The notes under the pieces: generated by a model
Seen by the model: the letters and a program-made list of their open reading frames with translations, nothing else
What the model was told of the DNA's origin: nothing
Databases searched by the model: none
Source: a virus
DNA length: 42,045 nt
Strand: one strand, 5' to 3'
Virus record (IMG/VR): IMGVR_UViG_3300032731_000277
Span: 1-42,045 of that record
Part shown: positions 7,437-34,216 of the stretch, piece by piece
Layout of the letters: each line of letters starts with the position of its first letter
Numbering within the stretch: the stretch's first letter is position 1
Program-made: the position numbers and the translations under genes

Positions 7437-7506
7437 ATGCGCCGCTGATAAGGCTCAGCGGCAAAGCCTTGAGGGGCCGCCTACTGTAAAGCAGAAGGCT
7501 CACAAG

Positions 7507-7579: not shown

Positions 7580-7585
7580 ACGCTC

Positions 7586-10500
7586 TTACCAACTTCGATA
7601 CCATCTCAAGTTCGGCGTCCACGGCCTGTCGTCGTAGCCCCGACGCTGCGGCTCCGCTGCGCCCAGGCTGGCGCGTAGTTGCCCCAGGAGTTCAGGGTCT
7701 TGGGTGCGTAACCAAGCTGCTAACTCTGGGTTGCCGGCCAGGAACCACTCTCGCTGCGATGCGTCCAGAAGTAGCCAGCTTTGTATCAGTTCCAGTAGGT
7801 CAGCCCCGCCCGTGAAGCTGGCGGCGAAGTCGTTCCACGTCACAGCTTCGGCTTCGCGCTGCTCTTCCTTGGTGGGGGCTCTACCTCTTGGGGCGCCCAC
7901 GCCTCGTTGACCACCACCGTCCTCGCGTGGCTGCCAGGCAGGGCTATAATATTTGGTGTATAAAGGGTGCTCTTGCCTGAATTGATCATGGGCGTCCCAA
8001 TAGGTCTGCAACCGCTCCGATGGCTCTACCCGCCTACCCTCTTCCCTAGCCGCAAAGTAAGCCGATTGCTCCTCATAAATGCTGGCCCCAAGTCCTGGCT
8101 CATTGTACACCCACCGCCGGAATTCATCATGTTCTCGTTCGGCAGTGGCCCATTCCTGGGGCGTCCCCTGTGGCACATGCTCGTCTGTGTAAACCTCAAT
8201 GGCTTCCAGTGCGGCCTTGGGGTTCTCCCCCGTAGACAGGAACGCACTGACTTCTGGTAGTGCGTCTATGGCCTTACGGTATACGCCAGGCGGCAGAGCA
8301 GTCCGTGTGTCCCAAACATCGTTGCCCTCTTCGCGTGCGGCTGCCGTGTCTGGGCGCTGCACCTCTTGCGCCTCTATCACACCCATGATAGTCTGCCCAC
8401 CTAGCTCCGCACGTATCTCGTCGGGCGTCCAGCGGCCAGGGTACTCCATCATTATGAGCGGCAGCAGCGAGTCAACGTCCATCTCCATAGGCCGCGTCAT
8501 CACCGTGTCGCGTGCATCGGCGCGCAGTGATCCCAGTGACACGCCCCAGAGTCCCTTGAACTTGGCAGAGAGCCTGTCCCAGTATTGCTTCTCGTAGGCT
8601 TCCTTGCTCGACCACGCGCTCCCGCCGCTGTACTCGTAGAGGGCGTCCTTGAGGTCGTAGTCGGCGCCAGCCAGGTACTCTACCAGAATATCTATGCCAG
8701 CCTCGATGTTAGTCGCGGGGTCTAGTAATTCGTCAGAACTAGGCCGCCCCTCAAATACCTCGCCTGGTATCACCTGCATTAAGCCCGTGGCCTGCGACCT
8801 AGAGTTGTACGCTTCAGGGTTGCCCCCACTCTCAACGTCTATCATTGTAGCGACGATCCTGGGGTCTATCTCGGCAGGTTCAGCAGCCGCCTCGATCAGG
8901 TCTGACCATTGTGAAATGCGCTCAGCGACATTCTCCCAGTCAGCTTCCCCTGCAAGCTGTGACACCTGTGCCCACTGAGCTTCTTCCCAAAAGGGTGATT
9001 CGATGTGCTTCTTCCAGGTATAGTGAGCAGCACTAGCAATGGTATGATGGGATTTGTCATACTCCTCCACCGCCTCTGGGGTTGCAAGGTGTGGAAAATT
9101 GCTGAGGGTTTCCGCTCCCCAGAGTTCCAGGGCCGTCGCTCTCAGGCCAGCCTCCCACTCGCGCACAGCGCTCGAGTATTCCTCGTAGGTCTTGTATACT
9201 CTTTCCCCCTCTTCTACCTCCCCAACTGTGGCGTAGTAGTCTGGCTTCGTCTCGTCAAGCTGGCGCAGTAATGCTTGCTGGGTCTGATCCTTCAGGTACT
9301 CTATCGGTCGGTCAGTCGAAGGCGTTATGCTGGCATTGGGGTACTTCGCATTGATAGCCGTTATGTCATCAAAGTAGTCGCCCCAGATTTGGTTCAGGGC
9401 ATCCCTATCATGGGGGATGGCAAGATCAGCTATGCGCCCGTCACGCTCGGCGCGGGCGGCCTCGCCCTCGTCGAAGTAGGCCGACCGATCCTGCTCAACT
9501 TGCCACTCTTCTTCAGTCTCCCAGGGCAGGTCGGGGTAGTCGGGGTTGGCCTCGTAGAAGTCATTGATGGCAGACTTCTCGTCCTTCATGGTAGCCCCGT
9601 GCCGCTTGGCCCAAGTCCACATCTCCTGGGAGCCCATTGTGGTCGGGTCGCCACCCGTGCGCTCCACGTCGGCCTTCACCGCTTCCCGCAACTCAGCCGA
9701 CATGCCCATGCGCTCGTCTTCTTCGGCCGTGAACTCCTTCACGGGTAGCCCCAGGATTGCCATGAGTGCGAGGAAGCCCCCTTTGTTGCGGGCCTTTTCC
9801 CTCGCCGTGTCCCAGTTGGCCTCCTCGCCGCGCACGATCTGCGCTCTGACTTCCTTCTGCGTTTGCCACTCCAGGAACTTGTTTGGCTCTAGCCCCATCT
9901 TCTCTCGCCACCACGAGGAGGGGGTCATGTCTGTGTCAAATACGGCCCGCGCAATAGACTCGTAGGAGGACAGGTCAAACGGATACCAGTCGTCTCCCAG
10001 TACCCCCGCAGCGCCCAGCACGGTCTCGTTCCAGGGCCAGGTACGATAACCCATCTGGGAGCCGATAGTCCAGATAGACTCCGGAGAGGTCGGATCGTCC
10101 ATAGCCTCTTTAAGATTGCTGGCCTGGTAGGGCGTGCCGCCTGGTATCTGCTGCATGAAGGACATGTAGCGATAGAAGTCAGCATAGAGTGCCGAGTCTG
10201 GCGCAAAGCCCACCTTCTCCAGAAGCTCTGAGGGAATGGGAAGGCGCGTGCTGTACTGCAGGCGCGCTGGCAAGCCCTCGTTGGCCGCAGCCTGGAACGC
10301 CCGCGCCTTAGCAGCGGTGGCGGGGATCATGGGCTTCAGGGCAAACGTCCGCGCCCAGTAGGGGATGTTGTAGGCGGGCCAGTCCCAGAAGGTAACGAGG
10401 TCGTGCATCCACCCGCTCAGCACGTTTCTTTCGGTGTAGTTACCCAGGGCCTTGTTGACCTTGAGCGACGCCTTGATCGGTGCGTCGTCCAGCGTGCTCC

Positions 10501-16096: not shown

Positions 16097-16699
16097 TTAC
16101 ATCACCCATGCTAGTGCTTGTGGTTGCGTTTGCAGCCAGACTTCTAGGGGCCTATCTCTCTTACCAGAATTACAGCTACGGCAAGCTACCACGAGATTGT
16201 CTTCTGAGTGTGGGCCGCCATTGAATAGGGCTACAACGTGATCTAGGGTTAGGTCTTCAGTGGCCCCGCAGTAGATACACCCATGCCCATCACGTTCATA
16301 GATCGCGGCCTCGTCTACTGAACCAACAGTGGCCCCTAACTTGCGGGCGTGGTAGCGCCGCCAGCTAGCACGGCGCTTGTCTTGATTGGCCTTAGCGTAG
16401 GCGGGGCCATACTCTGGATGGTTCGCCCGCCACCTCCGCGCGCTCTCGTTGACCGCTGCGCGGTTTTCGTCCTTCCACTCCCGATGATACTCCAGCCCGT
16501 GCTGACCATACCATCGCTTGTAGGCTGCCGCCATCTTGCCGGGGTTGGCCTTGTTCCAGCGTTTATTCCGCTCCAAGATTGCTTCGCGGTCTTCAAGGTA
16601 TCGCTGAGCGTGATAGCACTTCTTGCAAAGCCCCTTAGAGCAATGTCGCTTATTCCGCCCACACTCAGGGCAATGAATGTACCGCGTTGGTTTTGGCAT
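16097..16699 (-). CDS. Zinc-finger HNH homing endonuclease (cassette A)
   Basis: 200 residues, ATG 16699 with GGAGGTCAC. N-terminal zinc finger with Cys 10, 13, 25, 28 (CPECGRNK...GLCKKC), a long basic Trp/Arg/Asn helix repeat region (RWNKANPGK, RWYGQHGLE, RWRANHPEY), and HNH at about 138-178 (CIYCGATEDLTLDHVVALF, EDNLVVACRSCN). The zinc finger and linker recur in the nucleases at 25113-25625 and 22964-23386. It fits exactly between the stop of 16772-16969 and the portal start, preceded by the conserved leader RNA. Confidence 0.9.
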   Translation of the reverse strand: MPKPTRYIHCPECGRNKRHCSKGLCKKCYHAQRYLEDREAILERNKRWNKANPGKMAAAYKRWYGQHGLEYHREWKDENRAAVNESARRWRANHPEYGPAYAKANQDKRRASWRRYHARKLGATVGSVDEAAIYERDGHGCIYCGATEDLTLDHVVALFNGGPHSEDNLVVACRSCNSGKRDRPLEVWLQTQPQALAWVM

Positions 16700-16703
16700 G
16701 TGA

Positions 16704-16771
16704 CCTCCCTAATAGGTGCGGGTGGGGGATGATTAGGGCATCCCCCCAAGAGGTGTACAGCCTCTCCCCGC
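16704..16771 (-). promoter_or_regulatory. Structured leader RNA, copy A (pseudoknot on ribosome site)
   Basis: Outer helix GCGGG/CCCGC (16767-16771 with 16718-16722). Hairpin 1 is AGAGG/CCTCT. Hairpin 2 is GGGGGATG/CATCCCCC (16739-16746 with 16724-16731) with loop CCCTAAT (16732-16738). ATTAGGG at 16707-16713 is exactly complementary to that loop and overlaps the Shine-Dalgarno GGGAGG. It begins directly after the preceding TAA stop. Confidence 0.85.
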
Positions 16772-16969
16772 TTATCCTTGCCGCAAATGCTCACGGATAT
16801 CTAGTAAGTCTCTGAGGGCGGCCCGCAGTATGCTAAAGTATTCTTTCGAGTAGTGATCCCACCCCCAGATGCAGTCCACCACGATAGTTGATATATGCTT
16901 AATTGCGTCATCGACATTCTCTATAGCAGCGTCTCTGTGCTCATCTGCTGCCGTTATTACTCCCATCAT
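16772..16969 (-). CDS. Small acidic helical protein downstream of large terminase
   Basis: 65 residues, tandem ATG codons at 16969 and 16966 with AAAGGAGG upstream. All-helical, charged (EHRDAAIENVDDAIKHIS...RAALRDLLDIREHLRQG), no cysteines or membrane segment. It lies 9 nt after the terminase stop and is followed at once by the endonuclease cassette. Function not recognised; it may be a packaging accessory by position only. Confidence 0.65.
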   Translation of the reverse strand: MMGVITAADEHRDAAIENVDDAIKHISTIVVDCIWGWDHYSKEYFSILRAALRDLLDIREHLRQG

Positions 16970-16978
16970 CTACCTCCT

Positions 16979-18394
16979 TTATCCGTCCATTTTGAAAGCG
17001 CGTCTCCACAGTTCTTCCCTGGGCGTTTTCTGTACCCTGGGAACACTAGGCAACTTGATGATTCCGAATTTATCTATCAATCCGTAGCCCAGGGCTTTCA
17101 GGGCATCGCAGTCGCGGTTTACAGGCTCCTCGCCACCCAGCCGCTCCTCTGGCCGCTTCTTCCACTTGTGGTTGGTGAATTCGTAGGCCGTCATCTTGGC
17201 CTTCGGAGATAGCAGCAAGCGGGGCGTGCCAGTCTCGGGGTAAGGCATAAGGAATGACTTGATCCGCTCCCTCCCTACCTTCGGGGCTACCTGCTGGCTT
17301 CGGAGGGCTATGTCCCCCTCACTCCTCCAAACTTCTATCTGGCTTTTGGCGGCGTGATGCTGCCTTCCTGCGATGTCGACCACCCCACCTGTCTGAAAAC
17401 GCGAGGCTTTGCCGACGCGATCCCACCAGGGGCGTTTCTTGGCAATCTCAACTATCTCTTCCCCAATCAGCCCATGCTCGTAGATTTCATCTACAACAAA
17501 GACAAATGGGCCAGCCACCTGTATCGCCAGTACCGCATAGGCTGATTCGCCATACCCGGGATCCATCCACAACTCAACGGGCACTTTCGGGTCAAACTCT
17601 ACCCACGACTGCACGTGCAAGTGATGCTCAAATGTCGCAAACACCAACGTCGCCGGCTTCTGCGGCGTTGCGCCAAACCGACGCAGCCACTCCGCCTCGG
17701 TGTACACTGAGCGCAGGGACTTGATCTCCGGGTCGTCCTCCCCCCCTGGGAACCTGACCAGGTTGCTCCAGATGGGGATGCTGAAGCTCCGCCCCCCCTC
17801 GTCGTTCTCGCCTTTCCAACGCCGCCACATCTGCGACTGCCAGCCGGCGTCGTTTGGGAAGGTGCCGCTCAGTATTACACGCCCACGCTTTTCCGCAACA
17901 CGCCCTCGCGCCGCCAGGTACACGTCGTAGGGCAAGGTCTCAAACTCGACGCACAGCACTATGCCTGGGGCCTCCCCCCTGCGGCTGAGCGCCTGCCCGC
18001 CCTTCCTCTGCGTGCTAACGGTGATGATCTGCTTCAAATCACCACCTATGTTCAGGTTCAAGCTGCTGCGCTGCTGGCCGCTGGCCGGGCGCTTGACCTG
18101 GGTGACTATCTTGCTGCCAGTGACCTCGCCCAGTAGATGGAAGTAGTGGCTTAGATAGTCAAATTCAGGAAGGCACTGGTCGTAAGTCTCCCCGGCGATG
18201 TAGCAAAGTGACCAACGTGGGAAGCATCCAAAAGCCTCAAGGGCCGTGCAGAGGGACTTGCCGCCCCTCTCGCCTCCGCCGATGAGCAGGTGGCGCGCTT
18301 CGCACTCATGGACGGGCTGCTGGGCAGCAGTGGGGCTGTAACCGATTGCGTCAAAGAAAACCTTTTTGGATGCAAAGCTAGGCCAGTCGCTCAC
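16979..18394 (-). CDS. Terminase large subunit
   Basis: 471 residues. Walker A at 39-47 (GGGERGGKS), Walker B-like IVLCVE at 145-150 followed by acidic E150-F-E, and an RNase H-fold nuclease domain with D278 (WMDPGYGESAY), D340 (VVDIAGRQHH) and the RDCDALKALGYG segment at 427-438. This is the packaging motor ATPase and headful or site-specific nuclease. It is translated just upstream of the small protein and portal genes. GTPase-like replacements are absent; all key acidic residues are visible. Confidence 0.9.
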   Translation of the reverse strand: MSDWPSFASKKVFFDAIGYSPTAAQQPVHECEARHLLIGGGERGGKSLCTALEAFGCFPRWSLCYIAGETYDQCLPEFDYLSHYFHLLGEVTGSKIVTQVKRPASGQQRSSLNLNIGGDLKQIITVSTQRKGGQALSRRGEAPGIVLCVEFETLPYDVYLAARGRVAEKRGRVILSGTFPNDAGWQSQMWRRWKGENDEGGRSFSIPIWSNLVRFPGGEDDPEIKSLRSVYTEAEWLRRFGATPQKPATLVFATFEHHLHVQSWVEFDPKVPVELWMDPGYGESAYAVLAIQVAGPFVFVVDEIYEHGLIGEEIVEIAKKRPWWDRVGKASRFQTGGVVDIAGRQHHAAKSQIEVWRSEGDIALRSQQVAPKVGRERIKSFLMPYPETGTPRLLLSPKAKMTAYEFTNHKWKKRPEERLGGEEPVNRDCDALKALGYGLIDKFGIIKLPSVPRVQKTPREELWRRAFKMDG

Positions 18395-18414
18395 TCATCA
18401 CCTACCATCCAATC

Positions 18415-18735
18415 TCAGTGGGGCGTCGTCGTCGGCAAAGTCCAATTGATAGAACCAGGCGAGCCAAGCTTGACGCGCCCGCGCTTCAGCCGCGCGATTT
18501 CAGCCGCCGCCTTCTTGCCCGTCTCGGTCAGAACGTGGGTCGCCGACCCGTCCAGTTGCTCCAGGATGTCCTGTGCGTCTTCCCCGTACCCCAGCCATTG
18601 CAGCACCTCCGCCAGCACGCCCAGCGGGTGCTCGAAGGCGTACTCCTCACAGTCGTAGCCATCTTCACGCTCGCGGTAGATGTCCACGTTGTAGCCGTGG
18701 TTTTTACACTTGCTGATCTCTATGGCTTCTCTCAT
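18415..18735 (-). CDS. Hypothetical protein upstream of large terminase
   Basis: 106 residues, ATG 18735, GAAGGAGGAG upstream. N-terminus includes KCKNHGYNVDIYREREDGYDC, then a helical part (VLAEVLQWLGYGEDAQDILE) and a possible winged-helix-like C-terminus (HVLTETGKKAAAEIARLKRG). It lies 20 nt from the terminase start. A DNA-binding role is possible but not shown. Confidence 0.6.
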   Translation of the reverse strand: MREAIEISKCKNHGYNVDIYREREDGYDCEEYAFEHPLGVLAEVLQWLGYGEDAQDILEQLDGSATHVLTETGKKAAAEIARLKRGRVKLGSPGSINWTLPTTTPH

Positions 18736-18789
18736 GGCTCCTCCTTCGATTTCGTGACAGCAATGGTCACAAAGAATGACTCGCGTAAG

Positions 18790-19260
18790 TCACCGCCGCC
18801 CCCACGCCGCCACGATTGCGGCGCGCTGTTCGTTTATCACCCCCCAGTGAGTTCCCAGCGCAACTGTGGTTATGAGTTCGTATAGCGCCCCCTCAATGTC
18901 AGACTCTGGCTCAGGCTCCTCGTCAGGCGAGGCGTCGAGGGCGCGAAGGGCGTCGCCCAACACCCGCAGCCTTTCGGTAGCTACACTTTGCCCAGGTGCA
19001 ACAAGGTGTGGCTCAAGCACCGCACGCGCAGCCGCAGCAACGCGACGGAGGGCGCAAAGCTCGGCTTGCACGCAGGTTAGCTCCGCCCTATCGTCCTCTA
19101 GGTCACTCAATAACTTTTCTGTAACCAGTACGCTGTCTAGCTCGTCGAGGTCGCTAATCTCGGCCTCTGCCGCAAGGGCATGAAGGGCGGCGCGCTCGTC
19201 TGCCGACGGCGGCCTGTTCTGCCACAACCACGTCCATGCCACAATTATCCTCTTGCTCAT
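18790..19260 (-). CDS. Hypothetical helical protein
   Basis: 156 residues. ATG 19260 (MSKRIIVAWTWLW) is chosen because it overlaps the upstream stop (TGATG) with GGAGG just before. Mostly helical and acidic. It contains LRRVAAAARAVLE and later LGDALRALDASPDEE, a pattern also seen in 20003-20335 and 30174-30371. Function unknown. Confidence 0.6.
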   Translation of the reverse strand: MSKRIIVAWTWLWQNRPPSADERAALHALAAEAEISDLDELDSVLVTEKLLSDLEDDRAELTCVQAELCALRRVAAAARAVLEPHLVAPGQSVATERLRVLGDALRALDASPDEEPEPESDIEGALYELITTVALGTHWGVINEQRAAIVAAWGRR

Positions 19261-19460
19261 CACTCCTCCTTGTCTAATTCGTCCAGGGCAGCGTTTAGGA
19301 AACCAAGGCAAAGCTCCTCCTGCCCACAATCAACGCTCTCGTAAGCACGGGCAAACGCACGCGTAGCAGCGGCGACGGATTCGTACTGGCGGACTCTGCG
19401 CAGAAACCCTGCACACACGTCAGGCTCACCCTCTAATACCACCGTGACGTTATCCCCCAT
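19260..19460 (-). CDS. Small hypothetical protein
   Basis: 66 residues, ATG 19460 with AAGGAG 7 nt upstream. Sequence MGDNVTVVLEGEPDVCAGFL, helical thereafter (ATRAFARAYESVD), two further cysteines (DCGQEELCLG). It overlaps the upstream gene by 11 nt and the downstream gene by 1 nt, so translation is probably coupled. Not recognised. Confidence 0.55.
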   Translation of the reverse strand: MGDNVTVVLEGEPDVCAGFLRRVRQYESVAAATRAFARAYESVDCGQEELCLGFLNAALDELDKEE

Positions 19461-19635
19461 CACTCGCTCCTTCAACTTCTGTAGCCCCACACCCCACGCA
19501 CTGGTCCACGTCGTGCGAACGCCAGCGGGCGCAAAACGCGCAACGGATGCGGGCGGTGGAAAGCCCGTTCTGGTTAATATTCTTGAGCCGCATCCTGTCC
19601 AGGATTGCGGTCACTGCTACCTGGGTGTCTATCAT
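19450..19635 (-). CDS. Small zinc-ribbon protein
   Basis: 61 residues, ATG 19635 (AGGAGG 6 nt upstream; a GTG 3 nt earlier is possible). CAFC near residue 32 and CVGC near 47 form a zinc-knuckle pair. One of several cysteine-pair microproteins in this genome. Function unknown. Confidence 0.55.
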   Translation of the reverse strand: MIDTQVAVTAILDRMRLKNINQNGLSTARIRCAFCARWRSHDVDQCVGCGATEVEGASDGG

Positions 19636-19795
19636 CACTTGCCTCCTTATGTCACTCTTGGTAAATGGGCCAAAATAAAAGAGATAGCGGGTCGCTCACC
19701 ACCAACTCAAACTAAACAGCATACCCCGTCACCTTCTCCCCCCCCTCACACACACACACCACACGCACGCACGCCCACGCACCCGTCCGTCCGCG
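19636..19795. other. Non-coding low-complexity stretch
   Basis: No supported gene. It contains a simple (CA)n and ACGC-rich tract at about 19747-19785 and AT-richer sequence just upstream of the 19635 start. No TTGACA/TATAAT promoter is visible. Confidence 0.6.
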
Positions 19796-19903
19796 TCACC
19801 GCCTCACGTCCCACCACCACGACACAGCACCGAGCACCGCGCCCACGCCGAGGGCCAGCACGACCAACAACAACGCTGCCGCCATGTACTCAGCATCCAT
19901 CAT
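19796..19903 (-). CDS. 35-residue single-pass membrane microprotein
   Basis: Tandem ATG at 19903 and 19900, GGGAG 7 nt upstream. One hydrophobic helix (AALLLVVLALGVGAVLGAVSWW) ending in positively charged DVRR, giving N-out or C-in topology. It overlaps the preceding microprotein gene by 14 nt. Too short to assign; membrane location is the only clear property. Confidence 0.5.
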   Translation of the reverse strand: MMDAEYMAAALLLVVLALGVGAVLGAVSWWWDVRR

Positions 19904-20018
19904 GATCACGCTCCCACCACCGCCGATGCCACGCCACCCACCGCACCACGTACGCCACCACGTACGCCACGGCGAAGGCAACCGTCACTATGCCGATTGC
20001 TGTTAGGACTTCGGGCAT
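19890..20018 (-). CDS. 42-residue membrane microprotein
   Basis: ATG 20018 within the end of the upstream gene (16-nt overlap) with GAGGGA just before. MPEVLTAIGIVTVAFAVAYV then VAYVVRWVAWHRRWWERDHD: one membrane helix with a basic, Trp-rich C-terminal tail. It forms an overlapping pair with the 35-residue gene downstream. A toxic or lysis-modulating peptide is possible; no homology recognised. Confidence 0.5.
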   Translation of the reverse strand: MPEVLTAIGIVTVAFAVAYVVAYVVRWVAWHRRWWERDHDGC

Positions 20019-20335
20019 GGGTCCCTCACCCACACGCCGTCGCTCCCGTCCGCGCCGAGGCCGAGCGTCTCCCCGTCCAGCGCGTCGAGGGCGTCACACA
20101 GCGGGAAGAAGAGCAGGGCAGGCAACCAATAGACATCTGGACGCCCCACCTGCTCCTTACTCCTGGCCGACGCCCGCACCGCCCGCGCCGCGTCTGCCAC
20201 CGCACGGAGAGCTGCGAGCTCCACCGTGCCTGCTAGTTCCATCTTGCAAGACTTACAAAGACGCTTCCCCTCGCTGTCAGTATAGAATCCGTCCACATGA
20301 GCAAAGCATTGCGTGCATTTGACTGCCGTGTCCAT
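20003..20335 (-). CDS. Zinc-ribbon protein with AVADAARA motif
   Basis: 110 residues, ATG 20335 after GGAGGAGGAG. N-terminal zinc ribbon (CTQC, 18 residues, CKSC), then helix LRAVADAARAVRASA and LCDALDALDGE. The same helical motif appears in 30174-30371 and, weaker, 18790-19260. Possibly a small nucleic-acid-binding accessory protein; function unknown. Confidence 0.6.
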   Translation of the reverse strand: MDTAVKCTQCFAHVDGFYTDSEGKRLCKSCKMELAGTVELAALRAVADAARAVRASARSKEQVGRPDVYWLPALLFFPLCDALDALDGETLGLGADGSDGVWVRDPCPKS

Positions 20336-20426
20336 CACTCCTCCTCCTTCCCGACCGCTCCCAGTGCCCCAGGAGCGACGCTACACCAGAACCCACACAC
20401 CAACCCGTTTCCCGCCCGCAAGCGCG

Positions 20427-20642
20427 TTACGGAGCAGCCGGCTCATTCTTAGCAGCCGCCAGCAACGCCGCGCGTGCTTGCTCCAAGACAGTATCATAAT
20501 CCGTCTGCCCTTCCAGTGCCTCAATGTGGGGAGGCCAACCCTTGTACGGCTCATAGAACCGCTTCAGGTCGCGCTGGAGTTCACGCGCTAACGCCAGCAG
20601 CTCCTCCATCCAGAAGATTAGGCTTTCTAGGCTATCCTCCAT
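20427..20642 (-). CDS. Small helical hypothetical protein
   Basis: 71 residues, ATG 20642 with GGGGGAGAG upstream, overlapping the small-terminase candidate by 11 nt. Acidic helices (MEDSLESLIFWMEELLALAR, YDTVLEQARAALLAAAKNE). Its C-terminal AALLAAAK resembles the end of the upstream protein (AALLAAAKGES), suggesting a shared helix. Not recognised. Confidence 0.55.
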   Translation of the reverse strand: MEDSLESLIFWMEELLALARELQRDLKRFYEPYKGWPPHIEALEGQTDYDTVLEQARAALLAAAKNEPAAP

Positions 20643-21027
20643 CACTCTCCCCCTTCGCAGCCGCCAACAGCGCCGCCAGCGCGTCCGACACGCCGTGGGA
20701 TACCTCAACGCCCCTCGCCATACCGCTTCTGTCGAGGATTCCTTCCGCCGTGGCCCGCTGCGTCCGCTTATCGCGCGTTGTAAGCAGCTTCTCCAGCGTA
20801 AGCACCGCCTTGTCGCGTAGGCGGGACATCATTTCCTGCGAGCGCTTAATGTCACCCCGCCAGATGCTTTCAAGCTGCTCCACGAAGTACGGGTCTTTCT
20901 TCCACTCGCACACCGTTTGCGGCACAACGCCCGCCTCGCCCGCCGCTTCCGCGTCCGTGTCTGCCCAGGGGCGAAACGCTATGTATTTTAGCTGGGCGTG
21001 TGTGAGGTAGCGCCCCTTATTAGTCAT
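20632..21027 (-). CDS. Terminase small subunit candidate
   Basis: 131 residues, ATG 21027. N-terminal helix-turn-helix typical of small terminases and related DNA-recognition subunits (LTHAQLKYIAFRPW, then AAGEAGVVPQTVCEWKKDP, YFVEQLESIW), followed by a long helical oligomerisation region (EMMSRLRDKAVLTLEKLLTT, RATAEGILDRSG). Such proteins recognise phage DNA and load the large subunit. It lies about 2.2 kb upstream of the large subunit in the same orientation, separated by small genes. The upstream HNH cassette may have displaced its normal promoter; its ribosome site is weak. Confidence 0.65.
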   Translation of the reverse strand: MTNKGRYLTHAQLKYIAFRPWADTDAEAAGEAGVVPQTVCEWKKDPYFVEQLESIWRGDIKRSQEMMSRLRDKAVLTLEKLLTTRDKRTQRATAEGILDRSGMARGVEVSHGVSDALAALLAAAKGESDGG

Positions 21028-21054
21028 AATTCTTTCTCATTCAGATTGTGCAAG

Positions 21055-21663
21055 CTACACGGCTTCGAACACCACCCGCGCCCGCACCTGGTACGGCACG
21101 CCGCCAGCCGTGAACACCGTCAGCGCCTCGCGCTCCGCCCAATACTCCAGACGGGTTAGCTGAAAGTGAAATGCGCTAGACATAATCATAAGATTGGCAG
21201 GGTCGTTATTGTCCCTCGCCCCGTCAATATGGTGGACGTGCTCCTTGCTTTCAAGGGGCCGTCCCAAGCACTGCGCCGCTACCAGCCGATGCTCCTCAAC
21301 CGTACGCACCTTGTTTGTCATCTCCTCGGCCAGCGCCCGCTCCGCACCGCTGAGCTGAGATATAGAAATGCGCCGGTAGCCGTCACGGATATACCAATCC
21401 GGCGAGGCTGGGTGGTACTCACGCGCCACCTTGCGAGCAGCACACGACTGACAACGGGTGCTTTTGTACGTGCCCTGCAAGCCAGGCCGCAAACGGGCGG
21501 CCACTATCCGCCGCCATTGCTTGCAGTCAGGACATTGAACGCTAACACGCACGCGCTTGCGGCCCCGCTTACCCTCAAGCTTTTGGCTATCAAAGTCCAC
21601 GTATGGCCGCATGTGCCCAGCCACATCTTCAGATCGTAAGTACTTCGGGATTGGACTGCCCAT
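21055..21663 (-). CDS. HNH homing endonuclease with leader (cassette D)
   Basis: 202 residues from ATG 21663 (GAGGAGG 7 nt upstream). The longer open frame to 21792 only reads through the structured leader. Two CxxC pairs (CPDC, CQSC, about residues 50-80) form a zinc ribbon. The C-terminal HNH_3-type motif is EEHRLVAAQCLGRPL, HVHHIDGARDNNDPANL, with the paired histidines and Asn. It carries the same leader RNA as three other nucleases, though its body is not related to theirs. Confidence 0.88.
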   Translation of the reverse strand: MGSPIPKYLRSEDVAGHMRPYVDFDSQKLEGKRGRKRVRVSVQCPDCKQWRRIVAARLRPGLQGTYKSTRCQSCAARKVAREYHPASPDWYIRDGYRRISISQLSGAERALAEEMTNKVRTVEEHRLVAAQCLGRPLESKEHVHHIDGARDNNDPANLMIMSSAFHFQLTRLEYWAEREALTVFTAGGVPYQVRARVVFEAV

Positions 21664-21670
21664 TCTTCTA

Positions 21671-21738
21671 CCTCCTCGAAGATAGAGCGGGTGGGAGATG
21701 TCGAGGCATCCCCCCGAAGGTCGGCCGACCTTCCCCGC
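21671..21738 (-). promoter_or_regulatory. Structured leader RNA, copy D
   Basis: Outer helix GCGGG/CCCGC (21734-21738 with 21687-21691). Hairpin 1 is a palindromic AAGGTCGGCCGACCTT stem. Hairpin 2 is GGGGGATG/CATCTCCC with one G-U pair. Loop CCTCGA (21701-21706) is exactly complementary to TCGAGG (21674-21679) overlapping the GGAGG ribosome site. Loop and partner both differ from copies A, B and C, which is strong covariation. Confidence 0.85.
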
Positions 21739-21781
21739 TGATTTAGCTATGAAACTGGTGGTGTTTTGTAAGGTAAAACGC

Positions 21782-21810
21782 TTGACAAACACGCTCGTTT
21801 GTGGTATACT
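21782..21810 (+). promoter_or_regulatory. Promoter of the plus-strand small-gene operon
   Basis: TTGACA 21782-21787, 17-bp spacer ending CGTTTGTGG, TATACT 21805-21810. Extended -10 TGG. It lies 30 nt before the start at 21840, in the divergent gap opposite cassette D. Confidence 0.88.
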
Positions 21811-21839
21811 AAGTGTATCACAGTAGGATAAGGAGAGTT

Positions 21840-22160
21840 ATGGACAGGATTTGCAATGTGTGTGGTAAGAACATAGCTTGGAACGAGCCCGCCACGGTCA
21901 CGCCAGGATACAACAAGTGGGAAGGCGCAGGCGTTACATTCATCCCGCCCAAACTTACCTGCGACGACTGCCTGCATAAGCTCAAGCGGGACTACCTTGC
22001 CCCCGTCCGCCCCCGACGCCAGCGCGCCCGACAACGCCAGCCCCGACTAGCCGCCAGCCACCGGAATTATTGCAGAGTAAAGAAACAAATCAGCAGGCAG
22101 CCCGCCGCCGCAAAGCAAGCACAAGAAGGAGGTACAGATGATGGAAGCTCACGAGTTTGA
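21840..22160 (+). CDS. Small zinc-ribbon protein, first gene of plus operon
   Basis: 106 residues from ATG 21840 with AAGGAG 5 nt upstream; the frame extends to 21813 but that lies at the transcription start. CNVCGK at residues 5-10 and CDDC near 40 make a zinc ribbon. The C-terminal half is very basic (RPRRQRARQRQPRLAASHR), consistent with nucleic-acid binding. Possibly an early host-takeover protein. Its last 23 bases overlap the next gene. Confidence 0.7.
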   Translation: MDRICNVCGKNIAWNEPATVTPGYNKWEGAGVTFIPPKLTCDDCLHKLKRDYLAPVRPRRQRARQRQPRLAASHRNYCRVKKQISRQPAAAKQAQEGGTDDGSSRV

Positions 22161-22470
22161 GGTACAGCTAGATGAGACAGAAGTACACCGCTATACCTGG
22201 TACGTCCACGCCCGCACTGTGCAGGAGGCCACTGGCAAGGCCCAGGATGGAGACGGCAAGCTGGTATCGAGCAGGTTTCTCCACTCTACCGATGAGGAGT
22301 GCAGGGTACACACCGCCTTTTCTATCCCGCCAGGGCCAGCGCCAACCATGAAGGAGCTTGTCGAATCCATCGCCGCATCACGCAGAGCCCTGATCTTATC
22401 CTGGAAGCCCGCCAGCGGCTCCCATTCGCCCACCGCGCCCAGCCCGCCCCTACTTCCGCGCCCGTTGTGA
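22138..22470 (+). CDS. Hypothetical protein of plus operon
   Basis: 110 residues, ATG 22138 with AGGAGG. N-terminal beta-strand region (FEVQLDETEVHRYTWYVHA, ARTVQEATGKAQ) resembles small phage proteins of unknown role. The last 30 residues are Pro/Ser-rich and low quality. Another frame there reads a plausible CDDCGAEIIEVHCA ending at about 22510, so a frameshift near 22390 or an overlapping zinc-finger gene is possible. Confidence 0.55.
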   Translation: MMEAHEFEVQLDETEVHRYTWYVHARTVQEATGKAQDGDGKLVSSRFLHSTDEECRVHTAFSIPPGPAPTMKELVESIAASRRALILSWKPASGSHSPTAPSPPLLPRPL

Positions 22471-22554
22471 TGACTGTGGCGCAGAGATCATCGAAGTACA
22501 CTGTGCGTAGCACGACGCCGCCGAGAGGCGAGCACAGATAAGGGAGGTAAGACG

Positions 22555-22932
22555 ATGACTGAGAACAAGCACGCGCCCGGCCCGTGGCGCATCGGTGCAC
22601 CTTACGGCCACCTAACGACCAAGATTCTGGCACATGGCGGCACATATGTCGTCGGCACCGTGTTCACCCGCCGTTGGGATACTAGTCTATCCGTCAATGC
22701 CACCGTGCCAGACGCTCAAGGCGAAGCCAACGCCCGGCTCATCGCCGCTGCGCCTGCGCTGGTGATGGCTTGCGAGGCTGTAATGCGCCCCGATGGGCAT
22801 TACTTAGAGTGTCCATGCAGGGGCAGCGATGACATCTGGGGCCAGGGACACAAGCACATGCCCCGCAATCCAACTGTCGCTATTTGCAAGCAGCTACGCG
22901 CCGCCCTTGCTGCGGTGAAGTCAACCACATAG
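22555..22932 (+). CDS. Phage early protein of the HxPGPW...ANARLIAAAP family
   Basis: 125 residues, ATG 22555, GGGAGG upstream. Contains HAPGPWRIG near the start and GEANARLIAAAPALVMACEA around residues 60-80, a signature shared by many small phage proteins of unknown function. Cys-rich LECPCRG in the C-terminal half. The next element is the convergent nuclease cassette B. Confidence 0.75.
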   Translation: MTENKHAPGPWRIGAPYGHLTTKILAHGGTYVVGTVFTRRWDTSLSVNATVPDAQGEANARLIAAAPALVMACEAVMRPDGHYLECPCRGSDDIWGQGHKHMPRNPTVAICKQLRAALAAVKSTT

Positions 22933-22963
22933 CACTATCAACTCAGCCGCCTCATCAAGAGGC

Positions 22964-23386
22964 TTAGCATGCTTGCTGCTTGATGAACTCTATCTGCTCT
23001 GGCGTCAGCCCCTTGAACCACTCACCATGTGCCCGCTGGTCCCTGAAGCGGGCATGCAGTGCCCGCTCCACAAGTGAGGCGTGACCACATGGGCCAGACC
23101 ACACCAACTCAACGGCACAGGGGCTACCGCCCAAGCTCCTCACCCTTTGAACGGGGTTATGTGAGCGCCCTATCTTGTAGCGGCCTAGGTCTGGCGCATA
23201 CACCAAGTAAATGTGCTCTTGTTCCATCCGAGAGGACTCACGATAGCGACGATGATTACGCCGCCTTCCCTCTGGGTTGTCCTCCCGCCGTTGCCGATCA
23301 TAGCACGAATTACACAACCCGCCAGCTTTGTGCAGCCTGTTCTGGCTACACTCAGCGCAGTGAATCCAACGAAACTTGTTAGGCAT
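22964..23386 (-). CDS. Zinc-finger GIY-YIG-like (T5orf172) endonuclease (cassette B)
   Basis: 140 residues from ATG 23386 with GGGAGG 4 nt upstream. Zinc finger Cys 10, 13, 25, 28 (CAECSQNR...GLCNSCYDRQRREDNP) nearly identical in layout to the HNH nucleases at 16097 and 25113. It is followed not by HNH but by a T5orf172/GIY-YIG-type domain: IYLVYAPDLGRYKIGRSHNP (59-78), then ALHARFRDQRAHGEWF with the late Glu. It is inserted antisense within the plus operon. A domain-swapped relative of the HNH cassettes. Confidence 0.85.
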   Translation of the reverse strand: MPNKFRWIHCAECSQNRLHKAGGLCNSCYDRQRREDNPEGRRRNHRRYRESSRMEQEHIYLVYAPDLGRYKIGRSHNPVQRVRSLGGSPCAVELVWSGPCGHASLVERALHARFRDQRAHGEWFKGLTPEQIEFIKQQAC

Positions 23387-23390
23387 CAAA

Positions 23391-23460
23391 CCTCCCTAAT
23401 AGGTTATTGCGGTGGGGGGTGATTAGGGCACCCCCCCAAGAGCTAGCTAGGCTCTCCCGC
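23391..23460 (-). promoter_or_regulatory. Structured leader RNA, copy B
   Basis: Outer helix GCGG/CCGC, hairpin 1 GAGC/GCTC, hairpin 2 GGGGGGTG/CACCCCCC with loop CCCTAAT (23422-23428). ATTAGGG (23394-23400) is the exact complement and overlaps the ribosome site. Stem bases differ from copy A in compensated pairs (G-C for A-T in hairpin 2; GAGC/GCTC for GAGG/CCTC). Confidence 0.85.
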
Positions 23461-23497
23461 TTAGTAAGCTATAAAATAAAAAGGAGAAAGAATAAAA

Positions 23498-23857
23498 ATG
23501 ACAGACCCATACGACGTATTTTGCGAGCGAGACCGCATTGACGCCCTGCTCGACCGCCGCGAGCCGCCGCCGCCCACCGAGGCGCTGGAGATCATCGAGA
23601 AGGAGCTACAGAAGTTCTACTCCGACCACCCTGAGTGGCGGGAGGCGGTGCGCGTGCTGGAGCGCACGATCGAGCGGGAGGAGAGGCTGCGGGTGGCGGC
23701 GGAGGCGTTCTTTGCAGCCGATGGCATCAAGCCAGCACGGCCCCCGTGTCCAGAAGTCAAGGATGATAAGGAATGGAACAGGCAATATGTTCTCGCTGTT
23801 AAGGCCAAGATAGAGGCCGAGGACAAGCTACGCGCCGCATTGAGAGGAGGTGATTAA
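23498..23857 (+). CDS. Charged helical hypothetical protein
   Basis: 119 residues, ATG 23498 after AAGGAG. Rich in Glu and Arg, predicted helices (ERDRIDALLDRRE, EWREAVRVLERTIEREERL, AKIEAEDKLRAAL). No cofactor or metal motif. No clear promoter lies between it and the nuclease cassette, so it is probably read from the 21782 promoter. Confidence 0.65.
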   Translation: MTDPYDVFCERDRIDALLDRREPPPPTEALEIIEKELQKFYSDHPEWREAVRVLERTIEREERLRVAAEAFFAADGIKPARPPCPEVKDDKEWNRQYVLAVKAKIEAEDKLRAALRGGD

Positions 23858-23858
23858 C

Positions 23859-24065
23859 GTGACAAAGGACAAGCCCGACTACCTACAAGTAGCAAAGGAC
23901 GAGTTGGCCCTGAGTTTCCGAGTCCGAGGCCGCCACGATCCGTCGCCGCTGCTCGCAGCACACGCTGCGGCGCTGATCGCACAGGCCGAGACGCTTGAGG
24001 CGATACTCGCCCTACTTGAAACAAGCATCAGCCCCTCACTGGCCCGCACTGCTGGCTACATCTAG
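23859..24065 (+). CDS. Small helical hypothetical protein
   Basis: 68 residues, GTG start at 23859 with AGGAGG 8 nt upstream. The ribosome site lies inside the end of the previous gene. Helical, Ala/Leu-rich (LLAAHAAALIAQAETLEAIL). Last gene of the plus operon; function unknown. Confidence 0.55.
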   Translation: MTKDKPDYLQVAKDELALSFRVRGRHDPSPLLAAHAAALIAQAETLEAILALLETSISPSLARTAGYI

Positions 24066-24201
24066 CGCCCGACAAATTGTTAAGGAGGTGATGCCATACA
24101 CCCAAACAAGTCACAGGTTATAGGCTAGTAGAAGGGGGGTGAATGTCATGCAGGCCCCGTCGCAGAAGCATGCGGCGGGGCTCTGTGCTATCTCCGAACA
24201 T
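24066..24201. other. Intergenic gap with convergent hairpin
   Basis: Between convergent operons. 24154-24163 pairs with 24172-24181 (10-bp GC-rich stem, one G-U, 8-nt loop). There is no U tract, so terminator function is only possible. A 10-codon ORF with AAGGAGG at about 24089 is seen but not called a gene. Confidence 0.5.
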
Positions 24202-24771
24202 CTACCTCGGGATTACATGGACGTGGAAATCAGGCGACAGCTTACCATCACCCGTGCAGGCGCCAGGACGATACCAACTGGCTTCCTCGATTGCAATGGC
24301 ATACGTCACTACGCCTGTGGCAAGGGGAAGGATAACACGCCCGCTAGTCAGAGTCAACCATTCATCAGGGCCTGACCCGTCAGCCTCCACCCAGGTAGTG
24401 CCGGTGATGTTTTTGTAGAGATTCAAGCCCATGTGGAGAAAGGAGTAGCACCCCGCCAAGTTGCCCGCGTTTGTCAGGTAGACAAACGCCATTGCATCGC
24501 CAGTACCCGAAATGGGCTCCAAGTAGTAAAGGTCTCCGGCCTCCCCAGGCCCACCCACAGCGCCCCGATATGGTTTCCAGGATGGCAAGCTGGGATAGTT
24601 GTTCAGCCCAAGATAATCACCGAACGCCGTGACCTCCACAAAGGAGGCATCACCCCCGCCAGTGATACCAACAGTGACCGACGCCGAAATCGCCGCCACG
24701 ACGAAGCTGACGACAGCAGCTACAACCACAACCAAGAGCACTACTATGAAAAACTTTTTCTTTTTTCTCAA
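24202..24771 (-). CDS. Membrane-anchored beta-domain protein
   Basis: 189 residues with apparent TTG start at 24771 (weak AAGG upstream, 4 nt after the previous stop). Residues 1-6 are basic (LRKKKK in DNA frame, Met-initiated), 7-33 a long hydrophobic helix (FFIVVLLVVVVAAVVSFVV), then a Gly/aromatic beta domain (VEVTAFGDYLGLN, EAGDLYYLEPISG, VTYAIAIEEASWY). Layout is signal-anchor plus extracytoplasmic domain. It could be a superinfection or surface-modifying protein; family not recognised. Confidence 0.6.
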   Translation of the reverse strand: MRKKKKFFIVVLLVVVVAAVVSFVVAAISASVTVGITGGGDASFVEVTAFGDYLGLNNYPSLPSWKPYRGAVGGPGEAGDLYYLEPISGTGDAMAFVYLTNAGNLAGCYSFLHMGLNLYKNITGTTWVEADGSGPDEWLTLTSGRVILPLATGVVTYAIAIEEASWYRPGACTGDGKLSPDFHVHVIPR

Positions 24772-24775
24772 TGTG

Positions 24776-25120
24776 CTAAAACCTTCTAACGTCTATAAGT
24801 TTTCGGGGCCAATCAATTGTGAACGTGTTCTGATAAGACTCGATGAATCCCCAGTACCAAAGCACCCTGTATACTCGCGCCTTAAGCTGCCTCCACAAAT
24901 CCAACCACGACACGCCAGGCCAATCGCTGTAAACAAATCCTTCTGGCAGGATGACCAACCTGCGCCCATCCTTGAGCGTGATAAAACCTGGCTCCACCCC
25001 GTGCCCGCTACATGATCCACAAGTACCCACCACCTGCAATGCCTCGACTAGATCATAAATGCAGGCATCTATCTGGTGATACTCACCATCAATCAGGAGG
25101 AGTAACGTGTCGTCACACAT
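24776..25120 (-). CDS. Hypothetical protein downstream of cassette C
   Basis: 114 residues, ATG 25120 (MCDDTLLLLIDGEYHQ) overlapping the stop of the HNH gene by 8 nt. No good ribosome site is visible, as if the nuclease cassette replaced the original leader. CGSCSGHG near residue 40 is a half zinc site. Trp/Tyr-rich C-terminus (WLDLWRQLKARVYRVLWYWG). Not recognised. Confidence 0.55.
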   Translation of the reverse strand: MCDDTLLLLIDGEYHQIDACIYDLVEALQVVGTCGSCSGHGVEPGFITLKDGRRLVILPEGFVYSDWPGVSWLDLWRQLKARVYRVLWYWGFIESYQNTFTIDWPRKLIDVRRF

Positions 25121-25625
25121 CAACAAATTCCCCGTATGTCCTCGCCCCCTTGCTACTGTTACAACTGCGGCAGGCCACGGCCAGGTTGTCTTGGCAGTGC
25201 GGCCCACCCCTTGCAAGGGGAGTAAGGTGGTCTAGTGTCAAGTCCTGATCTGAAGTGCAGTAGATACACACCTCGTCACGTTCATAGATTGCTGCCTCGT
25301 CTACTGGGCCAATGGTGGCGCCGAGCTTGAGGGCGCGGCGGCGGCGCGACTGCTCTCGCACCTTGTCGGGATTAGCCTTACGCCATTGGCGGGCGCGGTC
25401 GCGCACTTCTGCCCGATGAGCCACGTACCGCTGGCGATTGCGCTCTTCCCTGCGCCCTGGATTGGCCTTGTCCCATTGGCGATTATGCTCTGTGCTGTAG
25501 CCTGGATTGTCTTCGCGCCGTTGGCGATCGTAACACAGCCTACATAGCCCCTTAGCATGGTGTAGCTTGTTCCTCCCGCACTCATCACAGTGTACCCGGC
25601 GGGACTTTCTCCTAATCTGTACCAT
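25113..25625 (-). CDS. Zinc-finger HNH homing endonuclease (cassette C)
   Basis: 170 residues from ATG 25625, GGAGG just upstream; the frame to 25673 is leader read-through. Zinc finger Cys 13, 16, 28, 31 (CDECGRNK...GLCRLCYDRQRRED), basic helix linker (RQWDKANPGRREERNRQRY), and HNH (ERDEVCIYCTSDQDLTLDHL, CQDNLAVACRSCNSSKG). Close paralogue of 16097-16699 and shares its zinc finger with 22964-23386. Confidence 0.9.
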   Translation of the reverse strand: MVQIRRKSRRVHCDECGRNKLHHAKGLCRLCYDRQRREDNPGYSTEHNRQWDKANPGRREERNRQRYVAHRAEVRDRARQWRKANPDKVREQSRRRRALKLGATIGPVDEAAIYERDEVCIYCTSDQDLTLDHLTPLARGGPHCQDNLAVACRSCNSSKGARTYGEFVDV

Positions 25626-25629
25626 TTGA

Positions 25630-25704
25630 CCTCCTAACAGGTTGGCATTGGCGGGTGGGGGATGGTTAGGCATCCCCCCAAGGGCTGATCAGGCCCTCCC
25701 CGCC
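25630..25704 (-). promoter_or_regulatory. Structured leader RNA, copy C
   Basis: Outer helix GGCGGG/CCCGCC (25699-25704 with 25650-25655), hairpin 1 AGGGC/GCCCT, hairpin 2 GGGGGATG/CATCCCCC with loop holding CCTAAC. GTTAGG (25633-25638), exact complement of the loop, overlaps the GGAGG ribosome site. The loop change T to C relative to copy A is matched by A to G in the partner. Confidence 0.85.
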
Positions 25705-26261: not shown

Positions 26262-26416
26262 TGTAACTGGACTATCTCCCCCTCAATCCGCCTGATCTTG
26301 CTGATGATCGGGCCTGCCACCCCGTTCCAATCGTCGCAGTCACCCCTTGCAAGAGCGTCAAGCTCGGCGTAGCAGGCGTGCCACTGGCCGGCCAACTGCG
26401 ACTGCCTAAATTGCAT
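26165..26416 (-). CDS. Helical hypothetical protein, probably truncated by HNH gene
   Basis: 83 residues, ATG 26416 overlapping the GIY-YIG stop by 11 nt. Residues 1-60 are a convincing helical protein (WHACYAELDALARGD, SKIRRIEGEIVQLQW). The remainder (KWSSGTADSAFSVDGRVK) looks like frame-shifted reading of the HNH gene. The original C-terminus may have been lost. Confidence 0.5.
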   Translation of the reverse strand: MQFRQSQLAGQWHACYAELDALARGDCDDWNGVAGPIISKIRRIEGEIVQLQWTAKLQRAQKWSSGTADSAFSVDGRVKASTN

Positions 26417-27101
26417 ACAATTGCCAACCCTTGTAGCTACTCTTGTGCCCCAGGGCCACCTGACACATAGCCCCCCTGTTCCAGCCGCGCCCCTGACACA
26501 GCTTGCTCAAGTTACGGCCCAGTGGGATTATCTCCCCAGTTTCCCGATGGATAAAGGACGGGTATGGCCTAGCGACGGACGCGCCTATCTTGCGCTTCCA
26601 CTCATCGGAGAACTCCCGCCCCGTTAGGGCTTCGCTTATCTTTTGCTTTTTCTTTTCAGAGCATGGGTGGCCCAGCCCGTTCTGGTTGCCCATCATGGAG
26701 CGGCTGATTGCACTCTTGGCCGCCTCAGGCATCGCCCGCCCCTGGCTCGCCTCGCCTATCTTGCGCTTGTGCTCATCAGAGAGCGCTAGCCCTTGCATCG
26801 GAGCCTGAGCATCTCTCGCTATGTTGTACACCGAGGCAGGCATCTCAAAGTAACGATCAAGCCAGTATTGCTCACGCTCAAGCAATTGAGCCACATCGGC
26901 GACTTCCTCAATCACGCAGAACTCAAATGCCTCAGCCCCGTACTTGTGCCACGCCCGCTCCAGGTGCTCATTGTGGTGCTTCCGTCCCACTAGCTCCCGC
27001 CGATGCCTTGACCAGCGACGCTTGACATTGACCGCACTGCCCACATAAGCCGTGGCCTTGCCATCAAATAGGTTGACGATCTCGTAAACACCCTGCGTCA
27101 T
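26406..27101 (-). CDS. GIY-YIG homing endonuclease with NUMOD repeats
   Basis: 231 residues from ATG 27101, overlapping the upstream stop as ATGA. N-terminal GIY-YIG domain: GVYEIVNLFDGKATAYVGSA (4-23), RRWSRHR with catalytic Arg, LEREQYWLDRYF with Glu. Then NUMOD3 DNA-binding units (LSDEHKRKIGEASQGR, FSDEWKRKIGAS) and a C-terminal NUMOD1-like helix ending YKGWQLYAI. Paralogue of 33300-34091. Coupled translation replaces the leader RNA seen elsewhere. Confidence 0.9.
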   Translation of the reverse strand: MTQGVYEIVNLFDGKATAYVGSAVNVKRRWSRHRRELVGRKHHNEHLERAWHKYGAEAFEFCVIEEVADVAQLLEREQYWLDRYFEMPASVYNIARDAQAPMQGLALSDEHKRKIGEASQGRAMPEAAKSAISRSMMGNQNGLGHPCSEKKKQKISEALTGREFSDEWKRKIGASVARPYPSFIHRETGEIIPLGRNLSKLCQGRGWNRGAMCQVALGHKSSYKGWQLYAI

Positions 27102-27343
27102 ATTGCGTCCCTGATAGCCCTCAGCACACTTTGGAGCATTGAGCGGTACTGGGCAATGATGGCGAGCTCCGCCTTGAGTGAGTGATACCGCTCCACATAG
27201 CGAACAAGCGTTCGCTGCTCGTCCCCTATCTCTAACACCCAATCACAGAGATTGCCTAGCTCACGCTGGAGGCGGTCATAGTCCAGTTCGGCTAGTTCGT
27301 CACGGGTCATCAGCCGCCGTTCGTTGCGATCCTTGTCAGCCAT
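27098..27343 (-). CDS. Coiled-coil hypothetical protein
   Basis: 81 residues, ATG 27343, GGAG upstream, overlapping the previous stop (TGATG). Charged helices (ELDYDRLQRELGNLCDWV, HSLKAELAIIAQYRSMLQ). No motif. Followed by the GIY-YIG gene overlapping its stop. Confidence 0.6.
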   Translation of the reverse strand: MADKDRNERRLMTRDELAELDYDRLQRELGNLCDWVLEIGDEQRTLVRYVERYHSLKAELAIIAQYRSMLQSVLRAIRDAI

Positions 27344-30780: not shown

Positions 30781-30853
30781 GGCTGGCGGCAGGCATCGAA
30801 CCTGCACAGACCATATTACAAGTATGGTGCCCTGCCAATTAGGCGACGCCAGC
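30781..30853 (-). tRNA. tRNA-Thr (TGT)
   Basis: Acceptor GCTGGCG/CGCCAGC, D stem GCCT/GGGC, anticodon stem CCATA/TATGG with loop CTTGTAA (anticodon TGT), T arm GCAGG TTCGATG CCTGC, no CCA. Its first 15 nt overlap the end of the upstream protein gene, so processing of one RNA may cost the other. Confidence 0.93.
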
Positions 30854-32428: not shown

Positions 32429-32518
32429 AGGGTGGGGTAGGAATTGAACCTACAATGTTTACCCCTTGGGAACAGCTTTACAGGCTGCCGCAACACAACC
32501 AATAGTTGCCTCCCACCC
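32429..32518 (-). tRNA. tRNA-Tyr (GTA), long variable arm
   Basis: Acceptor GGGTGGG/CCCACCC, D stem GCAAC/GTTGC, anticodon stem GCAGC/GCTGT with loop CTGTAAA (anticodon GTA), long variable arm with CCC/GGG stem as in bacterial tRNA-Tyr, T arm GTAGG TTCAATT CCTAC. The discriminator reads T rather than the usual A, which is odd. No CCA. Confidence 0.88.
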
Positions 32519-33029: not shown

Positions 33030-33303
33030 GTCTCCTCCTTCGGCGAGGCAACATCTTCCACATCCCTCCCCCACACACAGGGCACACACCCTTGACGGCT
33101 GGGCGGCCATTCTTCATGGTGACCTCTTGGGCATCTTTGATTGTGCGCTTCTCCCTGCACCTAACGCAGTAGCCCGCCACCCCCAGCATCACCGCCACGC
33201 ACGCCGCGCACAGTTTCGCGTCGGCGGGCAGGTCGGCCACGTGTTCGGGCAGCCGCATCAACTCTCCGCAACGGGTGCAGGTGGTCTGGATTTGTCGAAT
33301 CAT
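33019..33303 (-). CDS. Zinc-ribbon protein with DUF5679-like domain
   Basis: 94 residues, ATG 33303 overlapping the GIY-YIG stop as ATGA. N-terminal CTRCGELM...CAAC zinc ribbon and a C-terminal [37 protein letters not shown], matching the DUF5679 pattern. Eight cysteines in four pairs: two zinc sites. Very basic end (PRRRRRH). Confidence 0.75.
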
Positions 33304-34091: not shown

Positions 34092-34216
34092 CACTGACAT
34101 CGTGTTATCCATTTCCAGACGTGGTCCCCGGCCCAATTACCCAAGAGCGTCCCGATCATGGCGAACACGCCGGGCCAGGCGAGCGCGTTGGCGGTGGCGA
34201 ATAGCTGGTCAAGCAT
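34091..34216 (-). CDS. 41-residue membrane microprotein
   Basis: ATG 34216 inside the end of the upstream gene, stop overlapping the GIY-YIG start. [20 protein letters not shown] then [16 protein letters not shown]: one weakly hydrophobic helix with Trp-rich C-terminus. Supported mainly by tight coupling on both sides. Confidence 0.45.

Follow-up and report, generated by a model that had tools for sequence, protein, structure and literature searches.

Phages abound in homing endonucleases that stand free of an intron, mobile genes whose products are toxic; the T4 literature has not settled what restrains the majority, their control being described as not obvious (review PMC2988022). The complete 42-kb virus record IMGVR_UViG_3300032731_000277 of IMG/VR, whose entire 42,045 nucleotides (nt) are called the window here, raises this question four times, since four nuclease genes on its minus strand are each preceded by a leader of 70-80 nt. 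We analyzed these leaders and their relatives in other viral contigs. The results indicate that they share an RNA element of two kissing hairpins, which very probably acts in cis as an mRNA leader locking the translation of phage homing endonuclease genes.

Structure of the four window leaders

An initial annotation of the window had placed a common RNA leader before each of the four genes. All four were recovered at its positions on the minus strand, although the phenomenon proved to be larger than described. The order of elements was the same in every window leader: an outer helix (P1), hairpins P2 and P3, and a further hairpin, P4, after the closure of P1. These elements made up the minimum free energy structure calculated with RNAfold in all four copies (-31.9 to -40.5 kcal/mol), with z scores of -1.6 to -3.3 relative to dinucleotide shuffles. 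The genes and leaders, the latter delimited by RNAfold and loop complement, are as follows (aa, amino acids; SD, Shine-Dalgarno).

16097..16699, minus: gene A, zinc finger + HNH endonuclease (PF01844), 200 aa
16700..16771, minus: leader A
16771-16767 with 16722-16718, minus: P1 of A, GCGGG/CCCGC
16766-16748, minus: P2 of A, loop CTGTACA
16746-16724, minus: P3 of A, loop CCCTAAT (16738-16732)
16717-16714 with 16706-16703, minus: P4 of A (SD hairpin), ACCT/AGGT, loop ATTAGGG (16713-16707)
22964..23386, minus: gene B, zinc finger + T5orf172/MUG113 (GIY-YIG superfamily), 140 aa; an alternative TTG start at 23389 is possible
23387..23460, minus: leader B
Within leader B, minus: P1, GCGG/CCGC (4 bp)
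23456-23438, minus: P2 of B, loop CTAGCTA
23436-23414, minus: P3 of B, loop CCCTAAT (23428-23422)
Within leader B, minus: P4, AACCT/AGGTT, loop ATTAGGG (23400-23394)
25113..25625, minus: gene C, zinc finger + HNH endonuclease (PF01844/PF14279), 170 aa
25626..25704, minus: leader C
Within leader C, minus: P1, GGCGGG/CCCGCC
25698-25680, minus: P2 of C, loop CTGATCA
25678-25657, minus: P3 of C, loop CCTAAC (25670-25665)
Within leader C, minus: P4, ACCT/AGGT, loop GTTAGG (25638-25633)
21055..21663, minus: gene D, HNH_3 endonuclease (PF13392), 202 aa
21664..21738, minus: leader D
21738-21734/21691-21687, minus: P1 of D
21733-21716, minus: P2 of D, palindromic centre TCGGCCGA
21714-21693, minus: P3 of D, loop CCTCGA (21706-21701)
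Within leader D, minus: P4, loop TCGAGG (21679-21674)

The outer helix had been given as GCGGG/CCCGC in all four leaders; it has this form in A, but in B it is reduced to the 4 bp noted above. The central claim, that the loop of the second hairpin is exactly complementary to the sequence overlapping the SD, was confirmed in each leader. The P3 loop is the reverse complement of the P4 loop (7, 7, 6, and 6 nt): CCCTAAT/ATTAGGG at 16738 (A) and 23428 (B), CCTAAC/GTTAGG at 25670 (C), and CCTCGA/TCGAGG at 21706 (D). This contact had been interpreted as a pseudoknot in a conserved RNA. The conserved fold was upheld, but the target of P3 is itself the loop of a hairpin, as in ACCT[ATTAGGG]AGGT, and the contact fills both loops exactly; the P3-P4 contact in the modelled structure is hence a loop-loop kiss and not a simple pseudoknot. 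Part of the SD (GGGAGG or AGGAGG) lies in the loop of P4 and the rest in its 3' arm.

Copies in other viral contigs

A pattern describing the P3 hairpin alone matched at least 118 stretches in IMG/VR. A generic descriptor (a hairpin, an exact complement of its loop inside the loop of a second hairpin, an SD, and a start codon) picked three contigs with two copies each, the complete sequences of which yielded 16 copies, and further contigs were obtained from two additional scans and a final scan with a different loop. The 13 viral contigs that were scanned in full contained 43 distinct, non-redundant copies, and a further 14 were found besides (L154:1408, L219, L222, L223, L224, two in L229, three in G023, the copies before TerL in L217 and L226, L155, and L157). 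Descriptor matches in L028 and L051 were dismissed as chance. The full contigs contained 46 motifs linked to an SD and an open reading frame (ORF), compared with none in any of ten dinucleotide shuffles; structure alone gave 58 motifs, compared with about 3. A reversed-sequence control, which retains hairpins and informs only on the polarity of SD and start, gave 45 matches.

The contigs form several groups without common structural genes, and nuclease genes are the only genes shared between the window and the other carrier contigs. Judged from their sequences, the carrier phages are non-homologous, and the element is spread over unrelated phages. Among cultured phages, the closest portal protein to that of the carriers is from Tunturiibacter phage Tunturi_3 (35%). 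Close-homologue scans of IMG/VR and GTDB genomes with the whole of protein A, with TerL, and with a strict RNA pattern gave nothing useful, and the leader was not found in L005, the single HNH relative that they returned. BLAST of one leader against phages and plasmids produced no true match, nor did 14 joined leaders searched against phages find one among cultured phages.

Covariation of the hairpins and the kiss

Pairs were counted on the 31 copies with 7-nt loops; a MAFFT alignment of the four window copies misplaced P1 of B and D. As many as 97.1% of the cells were paired, compared with 73.9% in shuffles, and changes on both sides occurred in 18 of the 20 pairs. Double-changed cells numbered 129, against 33 in shuffled and 7-16 in slid alignments, and none of 500 shuffles reached any of the covariation measures. 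Covariation was present in P3, in the kiss, and in P4, so that the compensated changes reported for the window hairpins are joined by strong covariation in homologues outside it. Comparison of the copies thus supports the structure by covariation.

The P3-P4 arrangement was found in all 43 copies (one without a start codon) as well as in the four window leaders, with the loops mostly 16-21 nt apart (range 13-26). About 28 different loop sequences occur among the 43, the P3 loop starting with C in all copies and with CC in most. Each P3 loop had the exact complement in its own P4 loop (43 of 43, against 7% between copies) and the complementarity ended exactly at the loop edges in every copy, although most copies had been searched for with this complement as a criterion and the full score is therefore partly due to construction. 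For this reason, models containing only nested pairs provide a fair test. Such a covariance model, built from the four window copies without loop-loop information (R1), as the initial annotation had suggested, was run on three contigs whose selection had rested solely on the P3 hairpin. It gave 11 matches, every one with an exact 6-7 nt complement; among them was G006:10218, which the descriptor had skipped for want of a start codon. A second nested-only model (R2), though trained on copies selected by the kiss, found one match of its own, L154:1408, with the exact 7-nt complement CCTTAGA/TCTAAGG. Scanning T4, Aeh1, and nine other cultured phages with R2 revealed no true copy; an Aeh1 match at 53753 (23 bits) was rejected as a terminator with a GAAA loop ahead of an SD, without a kiss.

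Genes behind the leader

According to Pfam and PHROGs, 41 of the 43 copies precede nuclease genes, which bears out the proposed nuclease association. The types comprise HNH, HNH_2, HNH_3, endonuclease VII, GIY-YIG with NUMOD3, T5orf172, and VRR-NUC, some of the HNH types being recognized by PHROGs only; the remaining two copies are one before a 51-aa ORF and one without an ORF. Copies beyond the 43 precede LAGLIDADG_3 and Vsr/DUF559 genes. Counted in reverse, the leader is present at 24 of the 42 nuclease domains found in these contigs without RNA information, and many lack it. The suggestion of a portable control module agrees with these many unrelated nuclease folds. It has to be qualified for the window, where proteins A, B, and C have an N-terminal zinc-finger segment in common; because the three genes share this 5' segment, leaders A-C are not independent, and D (HNH_3) is the independent witness. 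A further qualification is that some of the genes are not homing genes. The TerL leaders indicate use beyond homing nucleases, to which the element is not strictly confined.

The TerL copies (L217:10858, minus; L218:4555, plus; L226:3787, minus) have a TTG start and were found in two homologous contigs, with compensatory differences in the P3 stem. The complete leader CCTTGAA/TTCAAGG at 10218 (minus) of G006 (L132), behind which no start codon lies, is likely what remains of a nuclease gene that has decayed or been lost. The VRR-NUC domain protein behind the leader at L062:1683-2171 (plus) is possibly an unrecognized type of homing endonuclease. The contig L154, with five leader-bearing nuclease genes, also has a group I intron match at 7195-7864 (minus; 43.1 bits, below the gathering cut-off of 50, E 8e-8). 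Two GIY-YIG genes of the window, 26406-27242 (with NUMOD3) and 33300-34136 (both minus), are without the leader.

Proposed mechanism and alternatives

The mean predicted energies were -13.8 kcal/mol for P3, -2.2 kcal/mol for P4 alone, and -6.9 kcal/mol for the loop-loop duplex. Since P3 is strong and P4 alone is weak, the lock would be made by P3; P4 without P3 would hardly block a ribosome. During transcription, the stable P3 would form first, ahead of SD synthesis, and the SD would emerge about 18 nt downstream as the loop and 3' arm of the weak P4. Because P3 precedes the SD at a tight spacing, the SD is expected to be captured on emergence. The P3 loop, an internal anti-SD, would then kiss the P4 loop over all 6-7 nt, and with one half of the SD paired in the loop and the other in the stem, the 30S subunit would be excluded. 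The leader is thus expected to repress translation, in line with the initial annotation's proposal of repression until melting, and nuclease toxicity or timing may be the selective reason. Most copies are probably read from an upstream operon, and some would have their own promoter, with the mRNA starting at P3. As the lock travels with the gene and requires only P3, P4, and a start codon, it could give a low, context-independent nuclease level at any insertion site.

Several observations weigh against this reading. The leaders show no obvious trigger and lack invariant unpaired bases of the kind that would hint at a ligand; besides the share of the complement score that is due to the search, TerL is preceded by the leader in L217 and L226, an unknown 93-aa gene in L155, and a replication-type gene in L157. 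The leader might instead be a regulated switch: at a particular stage of infection the kiss would open or close in response to a phage or host factor (an RNA-binding protein, possibly the nuclease's own zinc finger, a small molecule, temperature, or Mg2+). Two-hairpin kissing switches are known, such as the guanidine-II riboswitch (PMC9300104), T4 endonucleases are timed (PMC2988022), and the zinc finger that proteins A-C have in common is encoded next to the leader. A common ligand or protein site is, however, hard to reconcile with nuclease families that have no common domain, with the variable linker of 13-26 nt between the loops, and with the lack of invariant unpaired nucleotides, and we regard a switch as possible but not probable. 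A ligand riboswitch in the strict sense was rejected because there is no conserved unpaired core.

Translational coupling or transcript choice, in which P3 is removed, and the nuclease turned on, by ribosomes arriving from the upstream gene or by transcription that begins within the leader, seems rather unlikely. Of the 43 copies, 32 share their strand with the nearest ORF found upstream, often with 18-80 nt between the end of that ORF and P3, and late transcripts of I-TevI offer a T4 precedent (PMC2988022). However, the upstream genes of B (23498, plus) and D (21840, plus) in the window are divergent, which makes coupling to them impossible (the ORF scan scores D as same-strand through an ORF 31 nt away), and the predicted transcription start (+1) retains all of P3 in five promoter-bearing copies. 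It is far less likely still that P3 and P4 are DNA-level elements, that is, operator or recombination sites or ends of a homing cassette, with incidental RNA folding. P2 palindromes do resemble operators and lie in the -35/-10 spacer of promoter-bearing copies; nevertheless, this reading of P3/P4 was already disfavoured by the complement stopping at the loop edges, the involvement of the SD at a fixed place before the start codon, the G-U pairs present in P3 and P4, and the polarity fixed relative to the gene. Hardly more credible is a kiss that activates translation. The repZ/repA pseudoknots of IncI/IncB plasmids, of similar architecture, do so through a 5' hairpin loop pairing near the SD, but that pairing is upstream of the SD, whereas here the SD lies within the kissing helix and the P4 stem.

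Comparison with known systems

The ribosome-binding site (RBS) of T4 I-TevI/II/III and segB and of Aeh1 mobE is hidden by cis RNA hairpins (PMC2988022). The likeness is a cis RNA structure pairing the SD of homing endonuclease genes, free-standing ones included, and prediction and covariation point to such pairing in the present leader. The T4 and Aeh1 structures are individual long-range hairpins from which late-promoter transcripts escape by losing the 5' arm, whereas the present leader belongs to a conserved family of two hairpins and a kiss, found with many nuclease folds in unrelated phages, and, where a promoter is recognizable, its predicted +1 keeps P3. The best reading is that the leader works like RBS sequestration of the T4 type but is a distinct, conserved family.

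The guanidine-II (mini-ykkC) riboswitch (RF01068) also has two small hairpins kissing near the SD, through conserved ligand-binding ACGR loops; the present loops are variable, longer, and heterocomplementary, one of them contains the SD, and none of the different loops is of the ACGR type. The T4 gene 32 leader pseudoknot is likewise a leader whose structure governs how a phage mRNA is translated, yet it serves gp32-nucleated autoregulation of one gene through an unstructured operator, without an SD kiss. The HEARO/OMEGA RNA of IscB adjoins HNH genes, and genes A and C show a weak, sub-threshold NCBIfam similarity to the HNH domain of IscB only (43.5 bits against a cut-off of 175). HEARO/OMEGA RNAs are guide RNAs of about 200-300 nt, in contrast to a leader of 45-75 nt that covers the ribosome site and also precedes non-HNH nucleases. 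In agreement with the earlier remark that no named motif fits, Rfam gave no match to the element in the window at the gathering cut-off, over the four leaders at E<=10, or in related loci at E<=1, and the kissing-loop family was not found in Rfam or in the literature searched. Hiding the RBS is therefore a known kind of control, whereas the kissing-loop family and its spread over most homing-nuclease folds are new. That a single RNA design precedes nucleases of many folds, in phages unrelated to one another, points to a general solution carried along by the gene itself. The covariance model could be used to annotate orphan phage nucleases, and the leader offers a compact, tunable kissing-loop expression lock that is open to two-mutation testing.

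Upstream hairpin and promoters

In the window and in two of the G023 copies, P2 sits within a three-way junction; elsewhere it is a separate, upstream hairpin. The outer helix and three-way junction, seen in the window and one other contig, are an elaboration and not part of the core. All four window leaders have a 6-nt palindrome in the P2 loop, missed by the initial annotation: TGTACA (A, loop 16760-16754), TAGCTA (B, 23450-23444), TGATCA (C, 25692-25686), and CGGCCG (D, 21728-21721). Such palindromes occur in the P2 loop of 14 of 32 copies, compared with 2.8% of background hairpins, and include TAATTA, TTATAA, and TTGCAA outside the window. Their geometry is 1+6+0 or 2+6+1; the HIV-1 dimerisation site has the 2+6+1 form. 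Because the palindrome is usually offset by half a base, it is ill suited to a plain DNA dyad and suits a self-kissing RNA loop; in promoter-bearing copies, the dyad within the promoter spacer suits an operator. P2 may thus provide an RNA dimer site or a DNA operator.

Scored against background, 13 of the 43 copies (about 2 expected) have a sigma70-like promoter exceeding the 95th percentile. In five of them the predicted +1 coincides with the first base of P3, suggesting that P3-P4 is a complete leader. In G009, G013:9217, G016, G018:265, and G019:79548, a sigma70-like promoter lies directly 5' of P3, its -35/-10 spacer containing an imperfect dyad. A two-part device, with the P3-P4 kiss locking the SD and palindromic P2 loops pairing two mRNA copies, is a speculative and rather doubtful extension. 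If P2 did dimerise, translation of the nuclease would depend on mRNA concentration or copy number, and the mobile gene would carry a homodimerising, dosage-sensing RNA.

Rfam also located four phage-borne tRNA genes in the window, all on the minus strand.

7363-7435, minus: tRNA gene
7507-7579, minus: tRNA gene
30781-30853, minus: tRNA gene
32429-32518, minus: tRNA gene

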